Assembly (NCBI GenBank): GCA_017631255.1
Contig: JAGBTP010000035.1
Span: 1-47,611, forward strand
Direction of reading: 5' to 3'
Length of the DNA: 47,611 bases
Source: Alistipes sp.
GTDB taxonomy: Bacteria > Bacteroidota > Bacteroidia > Bacteroidales > Rikenellaceae
In this document: in pieces, positions 9,027-35,224 of the stretch
How the letters are laid out: each line of letters starts with the position of its first letter
Numbering within the stretch: position 1 is the stretch's first letter
Program-made: the position numbers and the translations under genes
Notes under the pieces: generated by a model
What the model was told of the DNA's origin: nothing
The model's database searches: none
Seen by the model: the letters and a program-made list of their open reading frames with translations, nothing else

Positions 9027-9932
9027 TTAGAGCATATCGTAGATGCGCGAGGCGTAGAGCACATCGTGCAGTCCGAGGCCTATGTTGTACGAGAGTATGC
9101 GTTCGGTGTCGCTCTCACGCCCTGGTGTCGCACCCTTGAGCACCTCCTCGAATTGGTGGAACTCACGAAAGCGGTCGAAGTACTTGAACGAGCGTATGTG
9201 GTCGGCATCGTCGGCATACACCTTATCGAAGGTGGTGTCACAGTTCTGGAAGCCACGCGTGTGTACGGGCACCACGAGCACCCCCGCCTTGAAGAGACGC
9301 TCATCCTCGACGATGAGCCCCTGAGCATCCGTTATGCACGACACCACGACATCGGCGCCGCTAACAAGCTCCTCCGCCGTATCGACAATCGTAAAGCGCA
9401 CCCCCGCCTCTCTGACAAACTCCTCGGCAAACCTCTCAGCTTGCTCCTTGTATCTTAGGAGTCGGATGTCGAGCACCTCGTTGCGGCATATCGCAAGCAG
9501 GCAGCGTAGCGTTGCGCGTGCCGTACTACCGAGGCCAATGAAGGCGTAGCAGCGTGCTGTGCTGACGCGCAGACTCTTAATCGCCGAAGCTGCTACGGCA
9601 CCTGTACGCATCGCCGTAATCCAGTCGGCGTCGACGAGGGCCAGCAGCTCGCCACTTTCGGCATCGAAGAGCATTAGGTCGCTCCTGAGTGCTGGCTTGC
9701 GACTCACGATGCGCGACACCACCTTAACCCCGAATCGGCGGTAGGATGCAGGTAGCAGGCAGGGCATCGTGGTGAAGAAGTCGTTGCCCGACGGGTGTAC
9801 CGATATCTTGGCCGGCAGCTGGCACTCGCTCTTGAGCATAAAGGCATCGCGCACCCACTCCACACACTTTTCGGGGCTGATGTTGAGCCCCACAATCTCT
9901 TGATTTACAATCCTCCTCATATCCCGACGCAC
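9027..9932 (-). CDS. Ornithine cyclodeaminase / mu-crystallin family oxidoreductase
   Basis: A 301-residue NAD(P)-dependent enzyme of the OCD/mu-crystallin/alanine dehydrogenase fold. Visible landmarks are the substrate-binding Lys in RFGVKVVSR (K70), the family signature AMRTGAVAASAIK (107-119), the Rossmann turn FIGLGSTARATL (131-142), and an Asp-rich C-terminal stretch. Family members act on amino or imino acids (ornithine, alanine, SbnB-type condensation products). Inside this glycan operon it may make or consume an unusual amino acid attached to the polymer, but that is inference. A Met at residue 5 is an alternative start. Upstream lies a 25-bp repeat array that separates it from the fusion gene. 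Confidence 0.8.
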   Translation of the reverse strand: MRRDMRRIVNQEIVGLNISPEKCVEWVRDAFMLKSECQLPAKISVHPSGNDFFTTMPCLLPASYRRFGVKVVSRIVSRKPALRSDLMLFDAESGELLALVDADWITAMRTGAVAASAIKSLRVSTARCYAFIGLGSTARATLRCLLAICRNEVLDIRLLRYKEQAERFAEEFVREAGVRFTIVDTAEELVSGADVVVSCITDAQGLIVEDERLFKAGVLVVPVHTRGFQNCDTTFDKVYADDADHIRSFKYFDRFREFHQFEEVLKGATPGRESDTERILSYNIGLGLHDVLYASRIYDML

Positions 9933-10021
9933 GATGTTTTGGTTTTCGGCCCTTGCCGAAGTTTTAGCTCTCCGCCCTTGCCGATGTTTTGGTTTTCGGC
10001 CCAGCCGAAATGTATGGTTTT
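9931..10021. repeat. 25-bp imperfect tandem repeat in the operon spacer
   Basis: Three adjacent units at 9947-9971, 9972-9996 and 9997-10021, plus a half unit at 9931-9946, fill almost the whole spacer between two co-directional genes. Each unit begins with a cggccc..gccga-type segment and ends in gttttggtttt or a close variant. The 21-bp stretches at 9932-9952 and 9982-10002 are identical. Its place inside an operon suggests expansion by slippage in a leader or spacer. No function is evident. Confidence 0.75.
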
Positions 10022-10027
10022 ACGCCC

Positions 10028-11845
10028 TTAGCACATAGTGCGCAGCGCCTCGACAAGACGATGGTTGTCGTTGCGGTCACGCACAGCAAGGCGTATGAAG
10101 TTCCTACCGCCGAATGCCGCCTTTGTCGAGCAGTCCTTGATGAGGATGTCGTAGCGGGCAAGCAGGTCGACAGAGAGCTGCGTAGCGGTGATGCTGTCGG
10201 AGATGACCTCGCAGAGGAAGTAGTTGGCCTGCGACGGTATCACGCGCAGGTAGGGTATCTCGCTAAGTTCGGCGAAGAAGAGTGCCCTCTCCTCACGGAA
10301 GAGGCGGCAGGCACGCAGGTAGTCGCCGTGGTACTTCTCGTATATCTGCATATAGAACTCGCCGAACGAGTTGATATTCCAGATGGCCACCTCCCTCTTC
10401 ATACGGGCGATGAGCTCGGTGTTGCCGCTTGCCAGCACGCCAAGACGGAAGCCTGGCACGCCGTACGACTTCGAGATGCTCTTAACCACGCATAGGTGTG
10501 GGTTGGCCGCAAGCAACGCATCGACGAGCAGCGAGAACTCACCCTCGACATCGACAAAGTCGACGAACGACTCGTCCACCACGAAGCCTATGCCTCGCTC
10601 CTTGGTCCAGGCGACGAGGTCGAGTAAGTCGTTGTACGGTATGTAGTTACCCGAAGGGTTGTCGGGGTTGATGATTAGGAGTGTGTCGATGGCCTTGTCG
10701 GCATAGAAGCGCTTGATGTCGGCAGCGCTATACTGCATCGTATCGCTCTCAGGCAGGTAGGCAACAATATCCTCCTTGGCTGCTCTGTTGGGGTACTCCT
10801 CGAAGGTAGGGAAGGCGACGCCCATCCTGCCAGCGTGGTTCTCCATATATAGCTTGATAAGCTCGGCAGCGCCGTTACCCACGACGATATGTTGCTGTGC
10901 CACACCGAAATACTTAGCTGCCAAGAGACTATTTACGCGCATACCCGAGGGGTACTCACGCAGGAGCGTGTCGAAGCTACTCTTAATCTCGTCGACCATC
11001 TGCTGCGGTGGGAAGTAGGGGTTGACCAGATAGCAAAAGTCGAGCAGACGGGGGTAGCGCCAGTAGCCGCCAAAGCGTGAGGCGATGGCACGATAGCGCT
11101 CCGCATCGCTGCGTGCGAAGATGCTCGAGGCGATGTCGAGGTCCTGAATATCGTCAATCTCGTACCACTTCTGGCCATCGAGGGGCAGCGCCCTGAGGGG
11201 CGAGTCGTCGAGCAGTGTGATGACCTTGAGCACCTGCTCGTAGTACTCGTTGTTGCCCAGCGCGTGGCAGTACGCCTCGAGGAAGGGGACATAGTGCGTC
11301 GCCGAGAACTCCTTGCTGAACTTGTAGATGTTGACGGTTTTGTAGTATGAGTCGATGTCGGCATAGCAGAACTGCTTACGCGAGTAGAAGTTCACGATGC
11401 GGCGCTCCTCGTCGAGTGTCACCACGGTGCCATCCATCCAGCTCTCGTACTTATCGACGAGTGCAAGGTTTGGGTACTCATCGTCGACTATGTGCCTGAG
11501 CACACGAGGCTCGTAGATGAGGTCCGACTCGAGGAGCAGCGTGTCGTCGGCAAGGAGGTAGTCCTTGGCGAGGTAGAGCGAGTAGATGTTGTTGGTCTTG
11601 TCGTAGACGCTGTTCTCGACATAGACAATCTCCATACCCTTGTAGCTTTGGCCCACCCACTCACGGACATTTTCGGCCTTGTAGCCCACCACGAGCACCA
11701 CGCGATCTATGCCCACCTCGGACAGAGCGTCGAGCGCACGATTTATCAGGCGCGTGCCATTTACCTCGAGCATACACTTGGTGTTGTTGTTTGTAAGCTC
11801 ACCAAGCCTACGCCCCATACCTGCTGCCAATATTATTGCTTGCAT
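10028..11845 (-). CDS. Nucleotidyltransferase-aminotransferase fusion (PntC-AEPT/LicC-like)
   Basis: A 605-residue two-domain enzyme. Residues 1-240 are a sugar-phosphate-type nucleotidyltransferase close to LicC: ILAAGMGRRL (5-14), the Lys of NTKCML (K23), ESDLIYEP (106-113), and the YEIDDIQDLDIA end block (228-239) seen in phosphocholine cytidylyltransferases. Residues about 265-605 are a fold-type I class I/II aminotransferase with INPDNPSG (392-399), Asp424 in VVDESF, PLP lysine K459 in SISKSYG, and GFRLG (465-469). This domain order matches the published PntC-AEPT fusion, which makes and CMP-activates 2-aminoethylphosphonate. LicD in the same operon could transfer the product. No PEP mutase or phosphonopyruvate decarboxylase lies in the window, so CDP-choline-like or amino-alcohol chemistry remains possible. 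Confidence 0.85.
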   Translation of the reverse strand: MQAIILAAGMGRRLGELTNNNTKCMLEVNGTRLINRALDALSEVGIDRVVLVVGYKAENVREWVGQSYKGMEIVYVENSVYDKTNNIYSLYLAKDYLLADDTLLLESDLIYEPRVLRHIVDDEYPNLALVDKYESWMDGTVVTLDEERRIVNFYSRKQFCYADIDSYYKTVNIYKFSKEFSATHYVPFLEAYCHALGNNEYYEQVLKVITLLDDSPLRALPLDGQKWYEIDDIQDLDIASSIFARSDAERYRAIASRFGGYWRYPRLLDFCYLVNPYFPPQQMVDEIKSSFDTLLREYPSGMRVNSLLAAKYFGVAQQHIVVGNGAAELIKLYMENHAGRMGVAFPTFEEYPNRAAKEDIVAYLPESDTMQYSAADIKRFYADKAIDTLLIINPDNPSGNYIPYNDLLDLVAWTKERGIGFVVDESFVDFVDVEGEFSLLVDALLAANPHLCVVKSISKSYGVPGFRLGVLASGNTELIARMKREVAIWNINSFGEFYMQIYEKYHGDYLRACRLFREERALFFAELSEIPYLRVIPSQANYFLCEVISDSITATQLSVDLLARYDILIKDCSTKAAFGGRNFIRLAVRDRNDNHRLVEALRTMC

Positions 11846-26929: not shown

Positions 26930-27652
26930 TTACTCCTCGGTGCTTAGGATGCCGCTCTCCTCGGCGTGACGGAGGATGCCCTCGAAGTCACGCACCGACG
27001 ACATCGTCCAGCGCGTCAGGAGCTTGAGTTTTTCGGCGTCGGTGAGCTGCCAGCCCTCGACGGTCTGGCGTATGCGCTCGGTAAGCATATAGATGAGTAT
27101 GGCTGCTGAGGCTGAGACATTTAGACTCTCAACCATACCGCACATAGGTATCATCAGGAAGTCGTCCGCCGCAGCGATAACTTCGTCGGTGATGCCAGCG
27201 TGCTCCGTACCGAAGACGAGGGCGAATTTACCCTTGGTGACATCGAAGGTTTCGGGCGTAGCGCTGCAACGGTGCGGCGTGGTGGCGACGATGCGATAGC
27301 CCTCGGCCTTGAGTGCTGCGAGAGCCTCGGCGGTGGTGCTATGGTGCTCGACATCTACCCACTTCTGCGTTCCGCGTACGATGTTGACGCTGGGGTCGAA
27401 GCGACACTTATCCTCCACGGTATGAATCTGTTGCACGCCGAAGGCCTCGCAGTGGCGCATTATGGCGCTGGCATTCTGCGGGTGAAACATATTCTCGGTC
27501 AAGATGCGCATATAGTGCGTGCGCATATCGACGGTGCGGCGCAGCACCTCCTTACGCTCCTCGGTGATAAACTTGGTCATATAGTCGAGGCGCTCCTTGA
27601 GCCACTTCTCGCTATGCTCCTCGGTGCGTAGTCTACTTGCGATATTTGTCAT
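26930..27652 (-). CDS. trmH: tRNA (guanosine-2'-O)-methyltransferase TrmH
   Basis: A 240-residue SPOUT-class methyltransferase expected to methylate the ribose of G18 in tRNA. Motif 1 is seen as ENMFHPQNASAIMRHCEAFG, motif 2 as LVFGTEHAGITDE, and motif 3, which forms the knotted SAM site, as IPMCGMVESLNVSASAAILI. The size and the C-terminal helical extension (LTDAEKLKLLTRWTMSSV) fit TrmH rather than the larger RlmB. The first 20 nt of the gene overlap the end of rsgA, so the pair is translationally coupled. Confidence 0.9.
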   Translation of the reverse strand: MTNIASRLRTEEHSEKWLKERLDYMTKFITEERKEVLRRTVDMRTHYMRILTENMFHPQNASAIMRHCEAFGVQQIHTVEDKCRFDPSVNIVRGTQKWVDVEHHSTTAEALAALKAEGYRIVATTPHRCSATPETFDVTKGKFALVFGTEHAGITDEVIAAADDFLMIPMCGMVESLNVSASAAILIYMLTERIRQTVEGWQLTDAEKLKLLTRWTMSSVRDFEGILRHAEESGILSTEE

Positions 27653-28577
27653 CTTCGTCTAATATTTTGAGGTAACTTTCGTATCTCGACAGTGCCACCG
27701 TACCCTCCTTAACGGCCTCGACCACGGCACAGCCAGGCTCGTGCGTGTGGGTGCAGTTGTAGAAGCGGCAGTCGGGCGAGAGGCGCATCATCTCAGGGAA
27801 GTAGCGACACAATTCGCGTGACTCGATGTCGATGAGGCCGAAGCCCTTGATGCCCGGCGTGTCGATGATATATCCACCCTCGATGGGGTACATTGTCGAG
27901 AATGTTGTGGTGTGCTTGCCCTTGTGGTGGCTCTCCGAAATCTCGCCTGTGCGGATGTCGAGCGTGGGCTCTATGGTGCTCACGAGTGTCGACTTGCCGA
28001 CGCCCGAATTTCCCGCCACAAGGGTGGTTCTTTCGCGTAGCATCTGGCGTATCTGCTCCACGCCCTCACCCGTAGTAGAGCTTAGGCGTATGATGTCGTA
28101 GCCCGCATCGCCATATATCGCCTCGAACTCCGCAGCCTCCTCGGCATACTCGTCCACGAGGGTGTCGGCCTTGCCGATGACGATGGTGACGGGCACCTTG
28201 TATGCCTCGCAGGTGACCAGAAAGCGGTCGACAAACTCACGAGGCGTAGAGGGTGAGTGCAGCGTCACGATGAGCAGGGCGTGGTCGATGTTGGCAGCGA
28301 TGATGTGCGACTCCTTCGATAGGTTCGAGGCGCGTCGGATGACATAGTTGCGGCGAGGCATAATCTCGACGATGGCGCTGCTGTCACCATCGGGCTCCAC
28401 AACGACACGATCACCCACGACTACGGGGTTTGTCGAGCGTATACCCTTGAGTCTCAGGCGTCCTCGTATGCGGCAGCTGAGTGTGCCGTGCTCGGTGATC
28501 ACCTCGTACCAGCTACCCGTAGAGCTTATCACCGTGCCCTCGATGCGTGCTGTGGCGTCGTTACTTGATTGTTGCAT
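27633..28577 (-). CDS. rsgA: Ribosome small subunit-dependent GTPase A
   Basis: A 314-residue circularly permuted GTPase that helps finish 30S maturation. It has an N-terminal OB fold (GTVISSTGSWYEVITEHG, about 14-31). The G4-like element IGKADTLVDE (usually N/TKxD, here GKAD) then precedes the P-loop GNSGVGKSTLVSTIEP and the G3 motif DTPGIKGFG, the order diagnostic of RsgA. A C-terminal zinc finger uses the Cys/His of CRFYNCTHTHEPGC. It overlaps trmH by 20 nt at its 3' end and cvpA by 17 nt at its 5' end. Confidence 0.95.
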   Translation of the reverse strand: MQQSSNDATARIEGTVISSTGSWYEVITEHGTLSCRIRGRLRLKGIRSTNPVVVGDRVVVEPDGDSSAIVEIMPRRNYVIRRASNLSKESHIIAANIDHALLIVTLHSPSTPREFVDRFLVTCEAYKVPVTIVIGKADTLVDEYAEEAAEFEAIYGDAGYDIIRLSSTTGEGVEQIRQMLRERTTLVAGNSGVGKSTLVSTIEPTLDIRTGEISESHHKGKHTTTFSTMYPIEGGYIIDTPGIKGFGLIDIESRELCRYFPEMMRLSPDCRFYNCTHTHEPGCAVVEAVKEGTVALSRYESYLKILDEDDKYRK

Positions 28578-29202
28578 ATGATGTTTTTACTCTTATGGCC
28601 CACTCCATAACATCCTCCTCGATGTCCCTAAGTTCGGGGCATATGATGTTGCCGAGTGCGGCAAGTTCGTTGAAGAGTATCGACTCGTCGAGTACGGCGT
28701 AGTCGATATATTTTGGTTCGAAGTACTCCCTAACCTCTGCATCGCGTCGCTCGAGACGCTCGGCATAGTCCTCAATCATATCGGCCGAAAGACCATTCGC
28801 ACCGAGCTCAAGCACCTTGTCGGGACGCATATCGCCGATGTTGGCGGTGCTGATGAGCGAGCAGGCTACCGATACCACAACGGTGGTGGCGACGATGGCA
28901 AGTGCCGTTCCGAGCAGCGAGTCGAAGGTGCGCAGCGCCTCGAAGAAGAGGAGCTTGCGGAAGAGTGGCGCCACAATCCATATGAGCACCATAGCGCCGA
29001 GGACAACCACGCCAAAGCCCACGAGATATGCAAGGCCCGGGTCGGTGGTGAAGATGGGGCCCACCTCCTCGGCAAGTTCTGGTGCAGCGAGGATGGCGAT
29101 ATATAGGCCCACGAGCTGTAGGAGCTGGGTGATGAAGCCCTTGCGCCAGCCTGTTACGATGGCCAGAAGGGCGATGATCGCAATGATGATGTCTATAATC
29201 AT
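28561..29202 (-). CDS. CvpA family membrane protein
   Basis: A 213-residue protein with four hydrophobic segments in the first 130 residues, opening IIDIIIAIIALLAIVTGWRKGFI. The TGWRKGFI turn after TM1 and the Leu/Gly-rich later helices match the CvpA/colicin V production family. The C-terminal third is soluble, acidic and helical. Family members are poorly understood inner-membrane proteins linked to envelope homeostasis. It is the first gene of the cvpA-rsgA-trmH overlapping set. I found no full promoter match upstream; a tatcttcg element lies near 29282-29289 on the minus strand. Confidence 0.85.
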   Translation of the reverse strand: MIIDIIIAIIALLAIVTGWRKGFITQLLQLVGLYIAILAAPELAEEVGPIFTTDPGLAYLVGFGVVVLGAMVLIWIVAPLFRKLLFFEALRTFDSLLGTALAIVATTVVVSVACSLISTANIGDMRPDKVLELGANGLSADMIEDYAERLERRDAEVREYFEPKYIDYAVLDESILFNELAALGNIICPELRDIEEDVMEWAIRVKTSYATIK

Positions 29203-29312
29203 AACTCTTTAGGTTTTTGTACGCGTTTGACGGAGTGCCGCCCTGCGGTGAAATGTTGATTCCCGAAGGGCATTATTTCGCACGAAGATACGAATAATTT
29301 TTGGTTTATGTG

Positions 29313-29320
29313 TATATTTG
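29313..29320 (+). promoter_or_regulatory. Putative -7 element for the GH2-fold gene
   Basis: TATATTTG at 29313-29320 matches the Bacteroidota -7 consensus; no good TTTG is seen at the proper distance upstream. Transcription from it would start near 29327, downstream of an in-frame ATG at 29308. This favours the ATG at 29344 as the real start of the gene. Confidence 0.5.
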
Positions 29321-29343: not shown

Positions 29344-31362
29344 ATGCAATACAGAATTCTACTCTCGATACTATGCTCTCTTTTGCTGGCTCTCACCACG
29401 AGTCGTGCGGTGGAGCCTACACGCCAGTGCTACGACATCAACGACGGCTGGCGCTTTTACTACACCTCGGAGCTCGATGGTGCCAACGCCGACTATGTCA
29501 CGCTGCCCCATAGCTGGCAAACGACACTCGGCAGCTATGGCTATGTAGCCTCGGCAGCAAACTATATCCGTACGCTTAACATACCTGCCGAGTGGGAGGG
29601 TAAGCGCCTCTTCCTGCGCTTTGGTGGTGTGCAGAGCGTCGCTGAGCTCTTCGTGAATGGCCGCTATGTCGGCTCGCACAAGGGTGGTTTTACGGCATTT
29701 ACGATGGAGATTACGCACTATGTCAAGTATGGCGCTGAGAACTATATCCGTGTGGTGGCATCGTGTGGCGAGCGCAGCGATGTGCTGCCCCTGTCGTCGG
29801 ATATGGACCTTACGGCAGGCATCTATCGTGGTGTTGAACTGATGGTTACGCCTAAGCATATCATCTCGCCGCTGCACCACTCGTCCGAGGGCGTATATGT
29901 GGTGCAGGAGAGCGTCGACAAGGATAGGGCGATAGGCGTTGTGAGGTGCTACCTCTCAACCCCAGGTGTCGACAATGCCAACCTCGCGCTGCGCATCGTG
30001 GGCCCCGATGGCTACGAGGCCCAGTACCGCCATATGCGTGCTACGAAGATCTCGTCAGATAGGGCCATTGAGATACCATACGACATCACAATGCCAGCAC
30101 TATGGTCACCCGAAAATCCGCAGATGTACCGCGTGGAGCTGACGCTCGAGGCGGGCAAGATGACCGATAGGGTAGAAGTCGTTACGGGCTTCCGCAAGGT
30201 GTCGATTAGCGATGATAACAAGCTCTGCATCAATGGTAAGCCATATGCCGTGCGTGGTGTCAACCTTGCCCACGACCGTATGGGCCTCGGTATGGCAATC
30301 AGCGAGGAGAACCTGGTCGAGGACTTCGCTGCGGTGTGCGACTTGGGTGCTAATGCCGTGCGCTCGATGTCGGGTCCTCATATGCCGTTGCTCTACGATA
30401 TGTGCGATAGCGAGGGCGTACTCGCCTGGGTCGATATGCCCTTCACACGCTCGCCGCTGGCCTTTTCCGACATATGCTACTACCCTCACGACGCCTTCCG
30501 CAGCAACGGCAAGGCGCAGCTCGAGGAGATTGTGGCGCAGAACTACAACCACCCCTCGATTGTTATGTGGGGACTCTTTAGCCTCGTGTGGCAGAGGGGC
30601 GACGATGTCGTAGATTATGTCAAGGAGCTCAACACCTTGGCGCATAAGCTCGACCCCTCACGCCTTACGGTGGGATGCAGCAATAGCGATGGCGGCATAA
30701 ACTTCGTTACCGACCTCATCGTGCTGCGTCAGGATGTGGGACTCTACAAGGGTCGTGTCGAGGATGTAGGTGTGTGGTGCCGTCAGCTCGCTGGTAATAA
30801 GCAGTTTGCGACACTTCGCTATGGTGTATGCTATGGCGAGGAGGGCGTCGCGGAGCACGCCACCGATAGGGTTGAGCGTGCTGAGCGTGGTGCGAAACAT
30901 ATCCCTGAGCGCCGCCAGACATATATGCACGAGGGCTACTCGGCTATCATCGACTCGATGGGTAACTTCTGGGGCGTGTGGCTCGATAATATGTACGACT
31001 ACGCCTCATCGCGTCGTGCCTATGCTCTCAATCAGTCGGGCCTTGTGGGCTACGACCACCGCAGCCATAAGGATGCCTACTACCTCTACCGTGCTAAGTG
31101 GAACGCGCGCGCCAATACGCTCCATATCGCCGACCGCAGCTGGCGTGAGCGACGCGATACGCTGCAACAGATTGATGTGTATAGCTCGGCAGAGGGTCTC
31201 CTTCTCCTTGTCAATGGCGACACTGCGCGTGTAGAGCGCATCGCTGCGGGCCACTTCCGTGCCGACTCGGTCATCATCAACGGCAAGGCCGTCATCGAGG
31301 CGCGCGATACGGTTAACTCGCTGAGCGACAAGGTTGAAATCGTCTGCGGCAGCAAGTTGTAG
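29344..31362 (+). CDS. Glycoside hydrolase family 2-fold protein, probable pseudoenzyme
   Basis: A secreted protein of 672 residues with signal peptide (MQYRILLSILCSLLLALTTS). Domains follow the GH2 order: a jelly-roll N-terminal domain (YDINDGWRFYYT; VTLPHSWQTT; GKRLFLRFGGVQS), a beta-sandwich ending LWSPENPQMYRVEL, then a TIM barrel from INGKPYAVRGVNLAHDRMG. The catalytic residues are missing: the acid/base 'NE' after NHPSIVMWGLF is Ser413-Leu414, the nucleophile Glu of 'EYG' is Cys496 (CYGEEG), and the active-site His of 'HYP' is Ser343 (MSGPH). The rest of the fold is well kept, so a binding or structural role is likely. Start chosen at the second Met because it begins the signal peptide. 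Confidence 0.88.
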   Translation: MQYRILLSILCSLLLALTTSRAVEPTRQCYDINDGWRFYYTSELDGANADYVTLPHSWQTTLGSYGYVASAANYIRTLNIPAEWEGKRLFLRFGGVQSVAELFVNGRYVGSHKGGFTAFTMEITHYVKYGAENYIRVVASCGERSDVLPLSSDMDLTAGIYRGVELMVTPKHIISPLHHSSEGVYVVQESVDKDRAIGVVRCYLSTPGVDNANLALRIVGPDGYEAQYRHMRATKISSDRAIEIPYDITMPALWSPENPQMYRVELTLEAGKMTDRVEVVTGFRKVSISDDNKLCINGKPYAVRGVNLAHDRMGLGMAISEENLVEDFAAVCDLGANAVRSMSGPHMPLLYDMCDSEGVLAWVDMPFTRSPLAFSDICYYPHDAFRSNGKAQLEEIVAQNYNHPSIVMWGLFSLVWQRGDDVVDYVKELNTLAHKLDPSRLTVGCSNSDGGINFVTDLIVLRQDVGLYKGRVEDVGVWCRQLAGNKQFATLRYGVCYGEEGVAEHATDRVERAERGAKHIPERRQTYMHEGYSAIIDSMGNFWGVWLDNMYDYASSRRAYALNQSGLVGYDHRSHKDAYYLYRAKWNARANTLHIADRSWRERRDTLQQIDVYSSAEGLLLLVNGDTARVERIAAGHFRADSVIINGKAVIEARDTVNSLSDKVEIVCGSKL

Positions 31363-31398
31363 AGAGATCATCTAAGCCTTACCCCCCCCTATATCACA

Positions 31399-31436
31399 GG
31401 GGCTGTCAAACGAGTGTTTGGCGGCCTCTTTTTTTT
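31399..31436 (+). terminator. Terminator after the GH2-fold gene
   Basis: An 11-bp or longer stem with two G-T pairs (ggctgtcaaac against gtttggcggcc, loop gagt) is followed directly by a run of eight or nine T. It lies 36 nt after the stop. It separates the GH2-fold gene from the cyd promoter. Confidence 0.85.
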
Positions 31437-31609: not shown

Positions 31610-31825
31610 ATGAAAAAAAGAATTATTGCCGTTTGGAACTTCTATGTCGATGGCTTTAGGGCGATGACCTGGGGGCGTCAGCTATGGCTGTTGATACTGC
31701 TAAAGGTGATTATCCTCTTCGCACTGCTCAGAGCCTTCTTCTTTGAGCCTGTGCTGGCTGGTAAGAGCGACGACGAGCGAAGTAGCTACATCGGTGATCA
31801 ACTTATTGAGCAAACCCTAAAATAA
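31610..31825 (+). CDS. DUF4492 small membrane protein (cytochrome bd associated)
   Basis: A 71-residue protein with one hydrophobic segment (LWLLILLKVIILFALLRAFF, about 26-45) flanked by a basic, aromatic N-terminus (WNFYVDGFRAMTWGR) and a charged tail. This is the DUF4492 pattern, found almost always directly ahead of cydAB in Bacteroidota, as here (30 nt upstream of cydA). By position and size it may act like CydX, the small subunit that stabilises the oxidase, but this is inference. Confidence 0.85.
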   Translation: MKKRIIAVWNFYVDGFRAMTWGRQLWLLILLKVIILFALLRAFFFEPVLAGKSDDERSSYIGDQLIEQTLK

Positions 31826-31855
31826 ACTTCCCTATAATTAAAAACCTCAATTACT

Positions 31856-33343
31856 ATGGTAGAGACCGCATTAGTCGATTGGTCGAGGTTGCAGTTTGCG
31901 CTTACGGCCGCTTACCATTGGCTCTTCGTGCCGCTAACCCTCGGTTTGGCAGTCGTTATGGCAACGATGGAGAGCGTATATGTTGCTACGGGCGACGAGT
32001 TCTGGAAGAGGACAACAAAGTTCTGGATGAAGCTCTTTGCTATCAACTTCACAGTAGGCATCGCCACGGGTATAATCCTTGAGTTTGAGTTCGGCACCAA
32101 CTGGAGTAACTACTCGTGGTTTGTGGGCGATATATTCGGTGCGCCACTGGCCATCGAGGGTATCTTCGCATTCTTTATCGAGGCCACATTCTTCGCCGTT
32201 ATGTTCTTCGGCTGGGAGAAGGTGTCCAAGCGCTTTCATCTGGCCTCCACTTGGCTTACAGGCATAGGTGCTGCCATCTCGGCAGTATGGATCTTGGTGG
32301 CCAATTCGTGGATGCAAAACCCTGTGGGTATGGAGTTTAATCCCGATACGGTGCGTCACGAGATGGTCGACTTCTGGGCGTTGGTGCTCAACCCTGTTGC
32401 CGTGTCAAAGTTCTTCCACTCGGTGTTTAGTGGCTGGATGACGGGTGCTATCTTTGTCATCGGCATCAGCTGCTGGTATCTGCTCAAGGGACGCGAACGA
32501 CGCTTTGCTTTGTCGAGCATCCGTGTGGCGGCTATCGTGGGTATTATCGGCACCTTTGCCGTTATGCTCAGCGGTGATAGCTCGGGTGTTCAAGTGGCTA
32601 AGTATCAGCCTATGAAGCTGGCTGCTGCCGAGGGCCTCGAGGATGGTGGCACGCGAGCAGGTTTCTCGATAGTGCCAGGTGTCGAGGTTCCAGGAGTGCT
32701 CTCTATCCTCGCTACGCACGATATCGACGGCTATGTGCCAGGTATTAATAATATTTTGGAGGGCTATACCACGCCTGATGGTGAGCGCCACCTCTCAGCA
32801 GAGGAGAAGATGGAGCGTGGCGATATCGCCCTCAAGGCCTTTAGCGATTACCGTGCACTGAGGGAGAGCGACCCTGCTGCTGCGGCAGAGGCACGCGCGC
32901 TGCTCGATGAGAATGTCGAGTACTTTGGCTATGGCTATATCGACTCTAAGGAGGAGCTTGTGCCACCCGTGGGCCTTGTCTATTGGGCCTTCCGCGTGAT
33001 GGTGGGTATTGGAGGTCTACTCCTTCTGTTTATGGTTGTGGTGTTGTGGGCTGAGCGTAAGGGTCGCCTTGAGGGTATGCGTCCACTGCTGTGGGCGGCG
33101 CTGTTGGCCATCCCGCTTGTCTACATCGCTGGCCAGGCAGGTTGGATTGTGGCCGAGGTAGGTCGCCAGCCGTGGGTTATCGACGGCTTGTTGCCTGTCA
33201 AGGCGGCGGTGTCGAGTGTCAGTGTGGCGGCGGTGCAGACCACCTTCTGGCTCTTTGTTGCTATCTTTACTCTGTTCCTCGTTATCGAACTACGCATTAT
33301 GTTTAAGGCTATCAACGAGGGTCCTAAAACCGAAAACGAATAA
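31856..33343 (+). CDS. cydA: Cytochrome bd ubiquinol oxidase subunit I
   Basis: A 495-residue membrane subunit carrying the haems of cytochrome bd, which oxidises quinol and reduces oxygen to water in the inner membrane. The N-terminal AAYHWLFVPLTLGLA carries the haem-ligand His region, FGTNWSNYSWFVGDIFGAPLAIE forms TM3, and the periplasmic Q-loop follows the segment around residues 240-330. The quinol/haem motif GRQPW lies near residue 440 (VAEVGRQPWVI). Length is normal for the short-Q-loop type. It is followed by cydB after 12 nt. In anaerobic gut bacteria this enzyme handles nanomolar oxygen. Confidence 0.96.
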   Translation: MVETALVDWSRLQFALTAAYHWLFVPLTLGLAVVMATMESVYVATGDEFWKRTTKFWMKLFAINFTVGIATGIILEFEFGTNWSNYSWFVGDIFGAPLAIEGIFAFFIEATFFAVMFFGWEKVSKRFHLASTWLTGIGAAISAVWILVANSWMQNPVGMEFNPDTVRHEMVDFWALVLNPVAVSKFFHSVFSGWMTGAIFVIGISCWYLLKGRERRFALSSIRVAAIVGIIGTFAVMLSGDSSGVQVAKYQPMKLAAAEGLEDGGTRAGFSIVPGVEVPGVLSILATHDIDGYVPGINNILEGYTTPDGERHLSAEEKMERGDIALKAFSDYRALRESDPAAAAEARALLDENVEYFGYGYIDSKEELVPPVGLVYWAFRVMVGIGGLLLLFMVVVLWAERKGRLEGMRPLLWAALLAIPLVYIAGQAGWIVAEVGRQPWVIDGLLPVKAAVSSVSVAAVQTTFWLFVAIFTLFLVIELRIMFKAINEGPKTENE

Positions 33344-33355
33344 ACCTTAGCCATT

Positions 33356-34498
33356 ATGATAACCTACGAATTTTTGCAGCACTACTGGTGGCTGCTGATA
33401 GCCCTCTTGGGCGGCTTGTTGGTTTTCCTGCTCTTTGTGCAGGGCGGCAACTTGCTCATCTTCCTTGCGGGTAAGAGCGAGGAGGAGAGGCAGCTTATTG
33501 TCAACTCTACGGGTCGTAAGTGGGAGTTGACCTTTACCACGCTTGTCACCTTTGGTGGTGCCTTTTTTGCATCGTTCCCGCTATTTTATAGCACCAGCTT
33601 TGGCGGTGCATATTGGGTGTGGGTGCTCATTCTTATCACCTTTGTGCTTCAGGCTGTGTCGTATGAGTTCCAGCGCAAGGCTGGCAACCTCCTCGGCACG
33701 CGTACCTTCCGTATCTTCCTGACCCTTAACGGCTGCCTTGCGCCACTGCTTATTGGCACCGCTGTGGGAACCTTTTTCACCGGTTCGGCATTCTATGTCG
33801 ATAAGAGTGCCGTTGGCCATATCGCTGCTCCCGTAATTAGCCGTTGGGCTAACGAGTGGCACGGCTTGGAGGCTGTGACTAATGCCTTCAATGTGGAGTT
33901 CGGCCTTATGGTGCTCTTTCTCACAACCTCGCTCGGTGCTCTCTACCTGATTAATAACATTGCGAGTGAGAGCCTTGCTAAGAGCCTGCGCCGCTACCTG
34001 GCCATATTCTTCGCGCTCTTCCTTGTGATGTTCCTTGTGGTGTGCTACCACCTCATAACTATGGAGGGTTTTGCAGTGGATGCTGCGGGTGAGGTGTATA
34101 TGGAGAAGGGCAAATATTTCGCTAATTTGTTGGCTATGCCTGCGGTGCTCACTATGCTGCTTGTCGGAGCAGTGTTGCTTGTCCTGGGTGTGGTGTTTAC
34201 GCTCCTCAAGAGCGAGTTTACGCGAGGCATATGGCTCTCAGCGCCAGGCACAGTACTCGCCGTAATGGCCCTCTTCCTTATTGTGGGCTATAACAACACG
34301 GCTTACTACCCATCTACTGCCGACCTTGCGTCGTCGCTAACGATTGCCAATAGCTCGTCGAGCGAGTTTACGCTCCGCACGATGGCTGTGGTGTCGCTCA
34401 TCATCCCCTTTGTTGTGGCCTACATTGCCTACTTCTGGCGACAGATGGATCGCAACTCACTCACAACCGAGGAGATAAACGAGGGCGAGAGCTATTAG
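33356..34498 (+). CDS. cydB: Cytochrome bd ubiquinol oxidase subunit II
   Basis: A 380-residue polytopic partner of CydA, with eight or nine hydrophobic segments. The start EFLQHYWWLLIALLGGLLVF and the stretch NSTGRKWELTFTTLVTFGGAFFASFP, followed by FYSTSFGGAYWVW, are typical of CydB. It closes the operon and is followed by a strong terminator. No cydDC-type assembly transporter lies in the window. Confidence 0.95.
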   Translation: MITYEFLQHYWWLLIALLGGLLVFLLFVQGGNLLIFLAGKSEEERQLIVNSTGRKWELTFTTLVTFGGAFFASFPLFYSTSFGGAYWVWVLILITFVLQAVSYEFQRKAGNLLGTRTFRIFLTLNGCLAPLLIGTAVGTFFTGSAFYVDKSAVGHIAAPVISRWANEWHGLEAVTNAFNVEFGLMVLFLTTSLGALYLINNIASESLAKSLRRYLAIFFALFLVMFLVVCYHLITMEGFAVDAAGEVYMEKGKYFANLLAMPAVLTMLLVGAVLLVLGVVFTLLKSEFTRGIWLSAPGTVLAVMALFLIVGYNNTAYYPSTADLASSLTIANSSSSEFTLRTMAVVSLIIPFVVAYIAYFWRQMDRNSLTTEEINEGESY

Positions 34499-34615: not shown

Positions 34616-35224
34616 CTACACCCTCAGCTTTGCACGCCTTAGGATATTGATGGCCTCGGGGCCTTCGCACATAATAAGGTCGAAAATCGAGAGGTTGGGC
34701 GCAAAGGGTAGCCTATCGCTAAAGACCTGAACATATGGCTCAGCCTCGAAGTGCGAGGTGCGGCCCTTGTCACGCAGGTCGATATCCTCTGCCGAGGCTA
34801 CGATATACTCCTCCGAGATGCGGGGCACAGCGATGCGCAGCACCGCACATATCTCCTTGAGCGTGGCCATATTGAGGTCAACGAGTTTGTGCCAATGCTC
34901 AGCGAAGAGGTGCGTGAAGCGCTCGCCGTAGTAGTCGTAGTAGGGCGAGGAGCGGTATGCCGACTCTATGGCTACGAGGTGCTGGTGCTGCCAGCGCTTC
35001 GAGTAGTCGACACGCATCGTGCGCATCGGCTGGCGGGGTCTGTTGGCGTGGGCAAGCTGCACCGAAAGCTGCATAATGCCGCCAGAGGTCATAATCTCGG
35101 TGCGGTTGCGCTCCGAACGCTTAACATAGTTCTCGCCAATGTCGATGACGACCTCGTCGCCACCCTGCACAAGCTCCGCCCAATACTCCACTGAGCCGAA
35201 GTATGCCGAAGGAAGTATTATCAT
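34616..35224 (-). CDS. WbqC family protein
   Basis: A 202-residue soluble protein matching the WbqC-like family: PSAYFGSVEYWAELVQGG at the start, NYVKRSERNRTEIMTSGG (the conserved basic-Asn block), then LFAEHWHKLVDLNMATLKEI and NLSIFDLIMCEGPEAINIL at the end. Members occur in O-antigen clusters and elsewhere in Bacteroidota; the biochemical activity is not established. It is 42 nt downstream of prmA and probably co-transcribed with it. Confidence 0.88.
   Translation of the reverse strand: MIILPSAYFGSVEYWAELVQGGDEVVIDIGENYVKRSERNRTEIMTSGGIMQLSVQLAHANRPRQPMRTMRVDYSKRWQHQHLVAIESAYRSSPYYDYYGERFTHLFAEHWHKLVDLNMATLKEICAVLRIAVPRISEEYIVASAEDIDLRDKGRTSHFEAEPYVQVFSDRLPFAPNLSIFDLIMCEGPEAINILRRAKLRV

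Follow-up and report, generated by a model that had tools for sequence, protein, structure and literature searches.

The window, a 47,611-nucleotide stretch of Alistipes sp. DNA, carries a gene whose product is best seen as an old, selected, exported pseudoglycosidase that is near-universal in the genus. From comparison of aligned sequences we think it probable that this secreted protein comes from an ancestral LacZ4-type family 2 glycoside hydrolase (GH2), has lost catalysis and has taken on a new binding role at an altered barrel mouth. That the protein is non-hydrolytic is very likely, and its present role is probably that of a ligand-binding or scaffold protein rather than one of new chemistry. 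Much more tentatively, a secreted beta-glucuronidase may have become a core protein whose function, exercised at a rebuilt barrel mouth, is new and not that of a glycosidase, with relatives that preserve the steps.

The gene and its active-site residues

The open reading frame of this gene, here called pseudo-GH2, is intact and begins with a putative Sec-type signal peptide (MQYRILLSILCSLLLALTTSRA, recognised by eye). The GH2 sugar-binding (N), Ig-like and TIM-barrel domains all exceed their curated Pfam cut-offs in the 672-residue protein (PF02837, 64.7 against 28; PF00703, 39.4 against 23; PF02836, 67.9 against 21), placing it in GH2 by homology and agreeing with the first-pass annotation of the sequence, which had described an intact frame, signal peptide and GH2 domain order. 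The start at 29344 appears better than an upstream in-frame ATG at 29308, because TATATTTG lies at 29313–29320 and the signal peptide begins at 29344 (both by eye). TATATTTG fits TAnnTTTG, which we take to be the Bacteroidota −7 promoter consensus, and constitutes the whole of the promoter evidence; a sigma-70-type scan of the region returned no same-strand promoter that would serve the gene. A hairpin scan of the region gave a single terminator-like hairpin, against 2.4 expected in shuffled sequences, and so no excess. With the cvpA-type and rsgA genes upstream oppositely oriented and the terminator-like hairpin 3′ of the gene, pseudo-GH2 looks like a single-gene unit. The annotation had given the gene a promoter-like element and a terminator of its own; candidates for both elements can be pointed to.

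Table 1. Positions in the window of the pseudo-GH2 gene, its altered motifs and its neighbours
Feature	Position	Strand	Remarks
rsgA GTPase gene	27633..28577	-	often conserved neighbour
CvpA-family gene (Pfam Colicin_V)	28561..29202	-	divergent neighbour, often conserved beside pseudo-GH2
Promoter-like TATATTTG	29313..29320	+	by-eye match to Bacteroidota −7 consensus; no clear −33 element
Pseudo-GH2 gene	29344..31362	+	intact ORF, 672 aa; putative Sec-type signal peptide (by eye)
First barrel strand motif GVNLAHDR (residues 305–312)	30256..30279	+	A309 for His; H310 and D311 fixed in genus
Former His-Tyr-Pro motif RSMSGPHM (residues 340–347)	30361..30384	+	S343 for His; S341, P345 and H346 genus-fixed
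Former acid/base motif WGLFSLV (residues 409–415)	30568..30588	+	S413-L414 for Asn-Glu
R-Q-D (residues 462–464)	30727..30735	+	replaces N-x-Y; Q463 genus-fixed
Former nucleophile segment LRYGVCYGEEG (residues 491–501)	30814..30846	+	C496 before Tyr497; one residue short against ISEYGAG
D548	30985..30987	+	in place of Trp of intact relatives
Former N-x-K-G motif N-Q-S-G (residues 563–566)	31030..31041	+	Lys lost, S565 (motif as in the available part of PMC10162664)
Terminator-like hairpin, then T run	31398..31429	+	hairpin scan of region
WbqC-like gene	34616..35224	-	downstream of pseudo-GH2, DUF4492-cydAB between in window

When the window protein was aligned to PDB entries 5z1a, 3cmg and 8dhe, its His-Tyr-Pro (HYP) motif read RSMSGPH against RLAHYPQ, its acid/base motif GLFSLV against GLFNEL and its nucleophile segment VC-YGEEG against ISEYGAG. 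Both marks of a retaining GH2 glycosidase, the nucleophile Glu and the Asn-Glu acid/base pair, are absent. Replacement of the HYP His by S343 and of Asn-Glu by S413-L414 had been proposed in the first-pass annotation and is upheld by this alignment. It had also put C496 at the nucleophile position: the Glu is indeed gone, but active enzymes have one more residue in this segment, and C496 would occupy the place of the Glu only when counted back from Tyr497. In an alternative reading the Glu itself would have been deleted and C496 would stand for the Ser that precedes it. The annotation's three replacements are thus real, but its list was short, as five further substrate-site residues are changed (A309, R462, D464, D548 and S565 for His, Asn, Tyr, Trp and Lys). 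Among ten relatives picked for being intact, His309, His343, Asn413, Glu414, Asn462, Tyr464 and Asn563 are present in all ten and Trp548 and Lys565 in nine; the window protein retains just one of these nine residues, Asn563. A wrong alignment register was considered and rejected, given the loss of the further substrate columns.

The best family match is LacZ4 (NCBIfam NF050095) and the three PDB entries are the best structural matches, with shared domains and similar length. Compared to LacZ4, the window protein is without both catalytic Glu, the HYP His, the N-x-Y pair, the Trp and the Lys of NxK, and it reaches 502 bits on the equivalog model against a cut-off of 950. Seven residues define a beta-glucuronidase in EcGUS according to the portion of PMC10162664 available (N412, E413, Y468, E504, N566, K568 and G569); with these positions assigned by motif, not by direct EcGUS alignment, the window protein keeps two (N563 and G566) and has S413, L414, D464, C496 and S565 at the others. 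The strand-2 Arg of GH2 is present as R340 by motif position and in 173 of 178 genus rows; we infer that this is the conserved Arg meant in the accessible text of PMC12243196.

Spread, selection and order of loss

A GH2 match was found in each of the 180 genus genomes and an orthologue in 178, with G107 having a fragment only; G019 and G056 yielded no orthologue in this search, only distant GH2s. The resulting alignment has 178 rows, of which two are one gene entered twice (L036 and L259) and one (L103) ends before the nucleophile, leaving 177 that cover both motifs. The first-pass annotation had asked whether orthologues share the substitutions, and they do: Asn-Glu occurs in none of the 177, and Glu before the Tyr is missing from 170 and present in seven, each with Ser-Arg at the acid/base position, so that no row has both. 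Glu at position 414 was seen in three rows, all as Ser-Glu. No genus row has His343, Asn462, Tyr464 or Trp548, and other old residues persist in part (Asn413 in 4 rows, Lys565 in 11, His309 in 41, Asn563 in 87). An assembly error was rejected, since 176 distinct genes that span both motifs show the same state.

Among the 30 closest pairs, several of which repeat one gene under two locus names, dN/dS was 0.035–0.264 in 29; the other pair (L086/L100, 0.352) includes a genus gene spread over two overlapping frames (genome G016). Genus rows showed no internal stops among the matches listed, and 70 N-termini resemble signal peptides by eye. Apart from the G016 copy, the signs of a pseudogene, dN/dS near 1 and broken frames, were not seen in these pairs and listed rows. 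Residues elsewhere in the protein have largely been held: 75 of the 91 positions invariant in the ten intact relatives still carry that residue as the genus majority, and ten of the 16 lost ones fall in active-site motifs (H309, H343, N413, E414, N462 and Y464 among them). Genus entropy exceeds the protein median at eight of the nine catalytic or −1 columns, Ser413 being the exception.

The rest of the family was represented by 88 genomes from 21 other genera, 84 of them with a match at E ≤ 1e-50, and identity was mostly 33–41%. Four kinds of row were seen: intact; acid/base lost with the nucleophile kept (19); nucleophile substituted (three); and nucleophile gone with the segment shortened (59, including L217, which does not reach the nucleophile segment). 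By reading of the rows, the last kind occurs in 11 of 22 genera, the window genus included. The three substituted rows, L128 (Ala), L189 (Ala) and L201 (Gly), have no deletion and have also lost the acid/base; they represent separate nucleophile losses.

When the motif columns were left out of tree building, the 79 nucleophile-less rows grouped as a single clade (SH-aLRT 100); this tree included 28 of the 89 genus rows of the alignment at that stage, after removal by hand of fragments and of 11 rows that were near-duplicates or surplus outgroups. A careful tree of 46 rows gave the same clade with support of 100/100 (25 rows, two with Glu before the Tyr). These two, L037 and L096, were not in the first tree and nest deep within the clade, which makes a secondary origin of their Glu probable. 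Rows with the acid/base lost but the nucleophile kept branch just outside the clade, and the intact LacZ4-type rows L135, L204 and L133, which pass the model cut-off, branch just outside both kinds. Acid/base loss also occurred in parallel in a separate group, g19. The minimum number of changes on the tree is three for Asn-Glu, three for the nucleophile and two for His343. In the family tree the acid/base is lost before the nucleophile, with two exceptions: L188 has lost the acid/base and retained the HYP His, and L194, which branches among acid/base-less rows, has kept both catalytic Glu and lost the HYP His.

Scores on the LacZ4 model were 1206, 1180, 951 and 846 (L197) for intact rows, 856 (L123), 836 and 784 for acid/base-less rows, 764 for L128 and 603 for L194, and 652 and 502 for the nucleophile-less L110 and window protein. 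The classes overlap slightly, the intact L197 lying below the acid/base-less L123. By its sequence relationships, the window protein is judged to be descended from LacZ4-type beta-glucuronidases. In an order-level sample of 60 genomes, one per family and including the window's own, matches at E ≤ 1e-60 came from four of the 59 other genomes at five places (L244–L248), all with every motif intact; at this threshold the nucleophile-less clade was not seen outside the family. In four other-genus genomes the homologue contains in-frame stops (L131, L188, L217 and L126; TAG at differing places in three, TAA reported for L126), and one other-genus homologue is split over two frames (L203/L209).

The chromosomal neighbourhood

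We compared 39 usable loci (about 9–16 kb) and the window segment, 35 of them nucleophile-less and five others; L152 and L160 are cut upstream by contig ends. CvpA and RsgA genes lie divergently within 3 kb upstream, measured between midpoints, in 26 of the 35 clade loci (RsgA at 3.5 kb in L168) and farther upstream in three, and they were found in none of the five loci outside the clade. Two of those five, L173 and L179 (acid/base-less, nucleophile kept), adjoin an Era-type GTPase gene. A WbqC-like gene follows within 1.7 kb in 24 of the 35 clade loci. In the window a 71-residue DUF4492 protein and cydAB (31610–34498) separate it from pseudo-GH2; given how close the WbqC-like gene usually is, they were apparently inserted in the lineage of the window. 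Across the loci tested, pseudo-GH2 mostly occupies a single chromosomal position, inherited vertically.

The ten window neighbours scanned (aminotransferase, SpoU methylase, rsgA, CvpA-type, DUF4492, cydAB, WbqC-like, prmA-type and integrase-type) include no SusC/SusD, CAZyme or glycosidase gene, so that pseudo-GH2 does not qualify here as a component of a polysaccharide-utilisation locus. The 30 neighbour proteins scanned in relatives' loci likewise include no SusC/SusD; a single sugar-degradation gene is among them, in L156, where alpha-galactosidase-type and metallophosphoesterase genes (9426–11081) lie downstream of pseudo-GH2 on the opposite strand. In L162 a co-oriented subtilase gene stands immediately upstream. 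Long neighbours in L153, L154, L155, L157 and L162 gave no Pfam match. A link to defence was rejected, as the PADLOC match was to a CARF-beta-galactosidase model only and is read as reflecting the shared GH2 domain. Nor was there a sign of a plasmid gene: the plasmid search returned 26 records, all below 60% identity, with the best row at 33%.

Candidate roles of the altered barrel mouth

Eight positions carry a residue other than that of four intact LacZ4 rows and have reached at least 90% fixation in the genus. Four of them lie in active-site motifs (Q310H, L341S, E364D and F546W, at 95–98%) and the others at 148, 336, 379 and 581; H346 stands at 98%. Positions at least 95% conserved make up 32.5% of the strand-end windows and 13.6% of the rest of the barrel in the genus, a descriptive comparison, the windows having been picked from the motifs by us. 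We read this as a chemical centre that no longer mattered, next to positions whose constraint was retained or increased. Since columns beside the old catalytic ones are fixed in the genus, the protein may have a new ligand site or new chemistry. The first-pass annotation had suggested glycan binding as a role; in its ancestral form this is not supported, since most residues contacting the −1 sugar are lost and their columns drift.

The same conserved positions could belong to a protein that is still an enzyme and performs glycoside cleavage, transfer or another reaction with a different apparatus, made up of D311, D364 and H346, of H310 in the genus and perhaps of E499/E500 in the window subclade. 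We regard this as unlikely. In its favour, D311 is found in 177 of 177 genus rows and D364 and H346 each in 174 of 178, and the strand-end windows, chosen by motif as they were, are more conserved than the remaining barrel. Among the 59 nucleophile-less rows of other genera, H346 is found in 53 and D364 in 49, the only two replaced and fixed positions shared beyond the genus; those genera mostly have Arg or Gln at 310, Val at 341 and Phe at 546. A shared re-tooled site would rest on H346 and D364, since H310, S341 and W546 are genus-only. Furthermore, the GH2 acid/base can move: GH2_21 beta-glucuronidases, as described in the available part of PMC12243196, are active with the classical acid/base replaced, and a conserved Glu is thought to assume its role. 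Residue loss alone is thus no proof of inactivity, and the acid/base-less homologues, which resemble GH2_21 in their substituted acid/base, may still be enzymes. Unlike GH2_21, the window clade is without the nucleophile too, and it breaks a feature called constant, the nucleophile Glu being described as invariant across GH2 subfamilies in the same portion of that 2025 subfamily paper. No conserved substitute for the nucleophile is seen either: E499 is present in 58 and E500 in 34 of 89 genus rows, and other genera mostly have Ala and Gly there. Asp at 311 and an acidic residue at 364 occur in intact enzymes as well, and the catalytic columns themselves drift. Among the points that tell against a non-catalytic binding protein are the seven genus rows with Glu before the Tyr and the closeness of E499/E500 in the window protein.

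The first-pass annotation had also suggested regulation of a partner enzyme. That the protein regulates or stabilises another glycosidase, for instance as the inactive member of a hetero-oligomer formed with a second GH2, seems very improbable. Active GH2 beta-glucuronidases do form dimers and tetramers (PMC10162664, in the part available), and the window's genome has other GH2 genes, at least one with intact motifs (L003). However, no partner gene is among the ten window neighbours scanned. In G017, G073 and G177, with at most six candidates scored per genome, pseudo-GH2 is the only GH2 match at E ≤ 0.001, and a partner visible to the search would not be needed there. LacZ4, the natural partner, exceeds the model cut-off in two of 180 genus genomes, again among the six best candidates at most in each, and both of these have intact motifs. 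Least credible of all is a decaying leftover of a lost enzyme. The substrate-site residues are gone, a few other-genus copies have in-frame stops and the G016 copy is frameshifted, but the gene is retained in 178 of 180 genus genomes, dN/dS is well below 1, signal peptides (by eye) and scaffold are kept, and the state is common to a clade of 11 genera. The claim of the first-pass annotation that the changes reflect selection and not decay therefore holds, on the strength of this presence, the signal peptides, the dN/dS range in 29 of 30 pairs and an old, monophyletic state.

We favour a pseudoglycosidase that acts by binding. Alignment and tree together show that an ancestral GH2 beta-glucuronidase of LacZ4 type first lost its acid/base, along with the HYP His in almost every row; the nucleophile went next, one residue of the surrounding segment disappearing with it, as did most contacts to the −1 sugar. 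Purifying selection maintained the GH2 scaffold, and in the loci tested the gene has mostly been passed on vertically at a single chromosomal position. With glycoside hydrolysis presumably gone, the predicted exported protein, periplasmic or released, would work by binding. Close to the former site, H346 and D364 became widespread in the nucleophile-less clade, with H310, S341 and W546 becoming fixed in the genus, and the altered barrel mouth most likely accommodates a different ligand, either from the cell envelope or from the environment, in a role that would be independent of any polysaccharide-utilisation operon. That 178 of 180 genomes carry the gene, usually next to housekeeping genes, suggests a durable function in the envelope or as a secreted protein.

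Klotho and the chitinase-like proteins are animal proteins with glycosidase folds that have lost catalysis and act as receptors or lectins. Klotho belongs to GH1 and the chitinase-like proteins to GH18; the window protein resembles them as a glycosidase fold with probable loss of catalysis and differs in its GH family. In the open-access literature, covered mostly at abstract level, we found no description of a catalytically dead GH2 in Alistipes or Rikenellaceae. Its Pfam domains make the gene count as a glycosidase in nearly every sampled genus genome, so predictions of sugar degradation would include a protein that probably does not cut. The natural series from intact through acid/base-less to nucleophile-less forms, represented by many sequences, makes the question of how an enzyme becomes a non-enzyme directly testable. 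In this series Ser-Glu recurs at the acid/base column in L110, L212 and other g20 rows and in L013, L061 and L089, all in a nucleophile-less background, where the Glu could be either a retention or a return.
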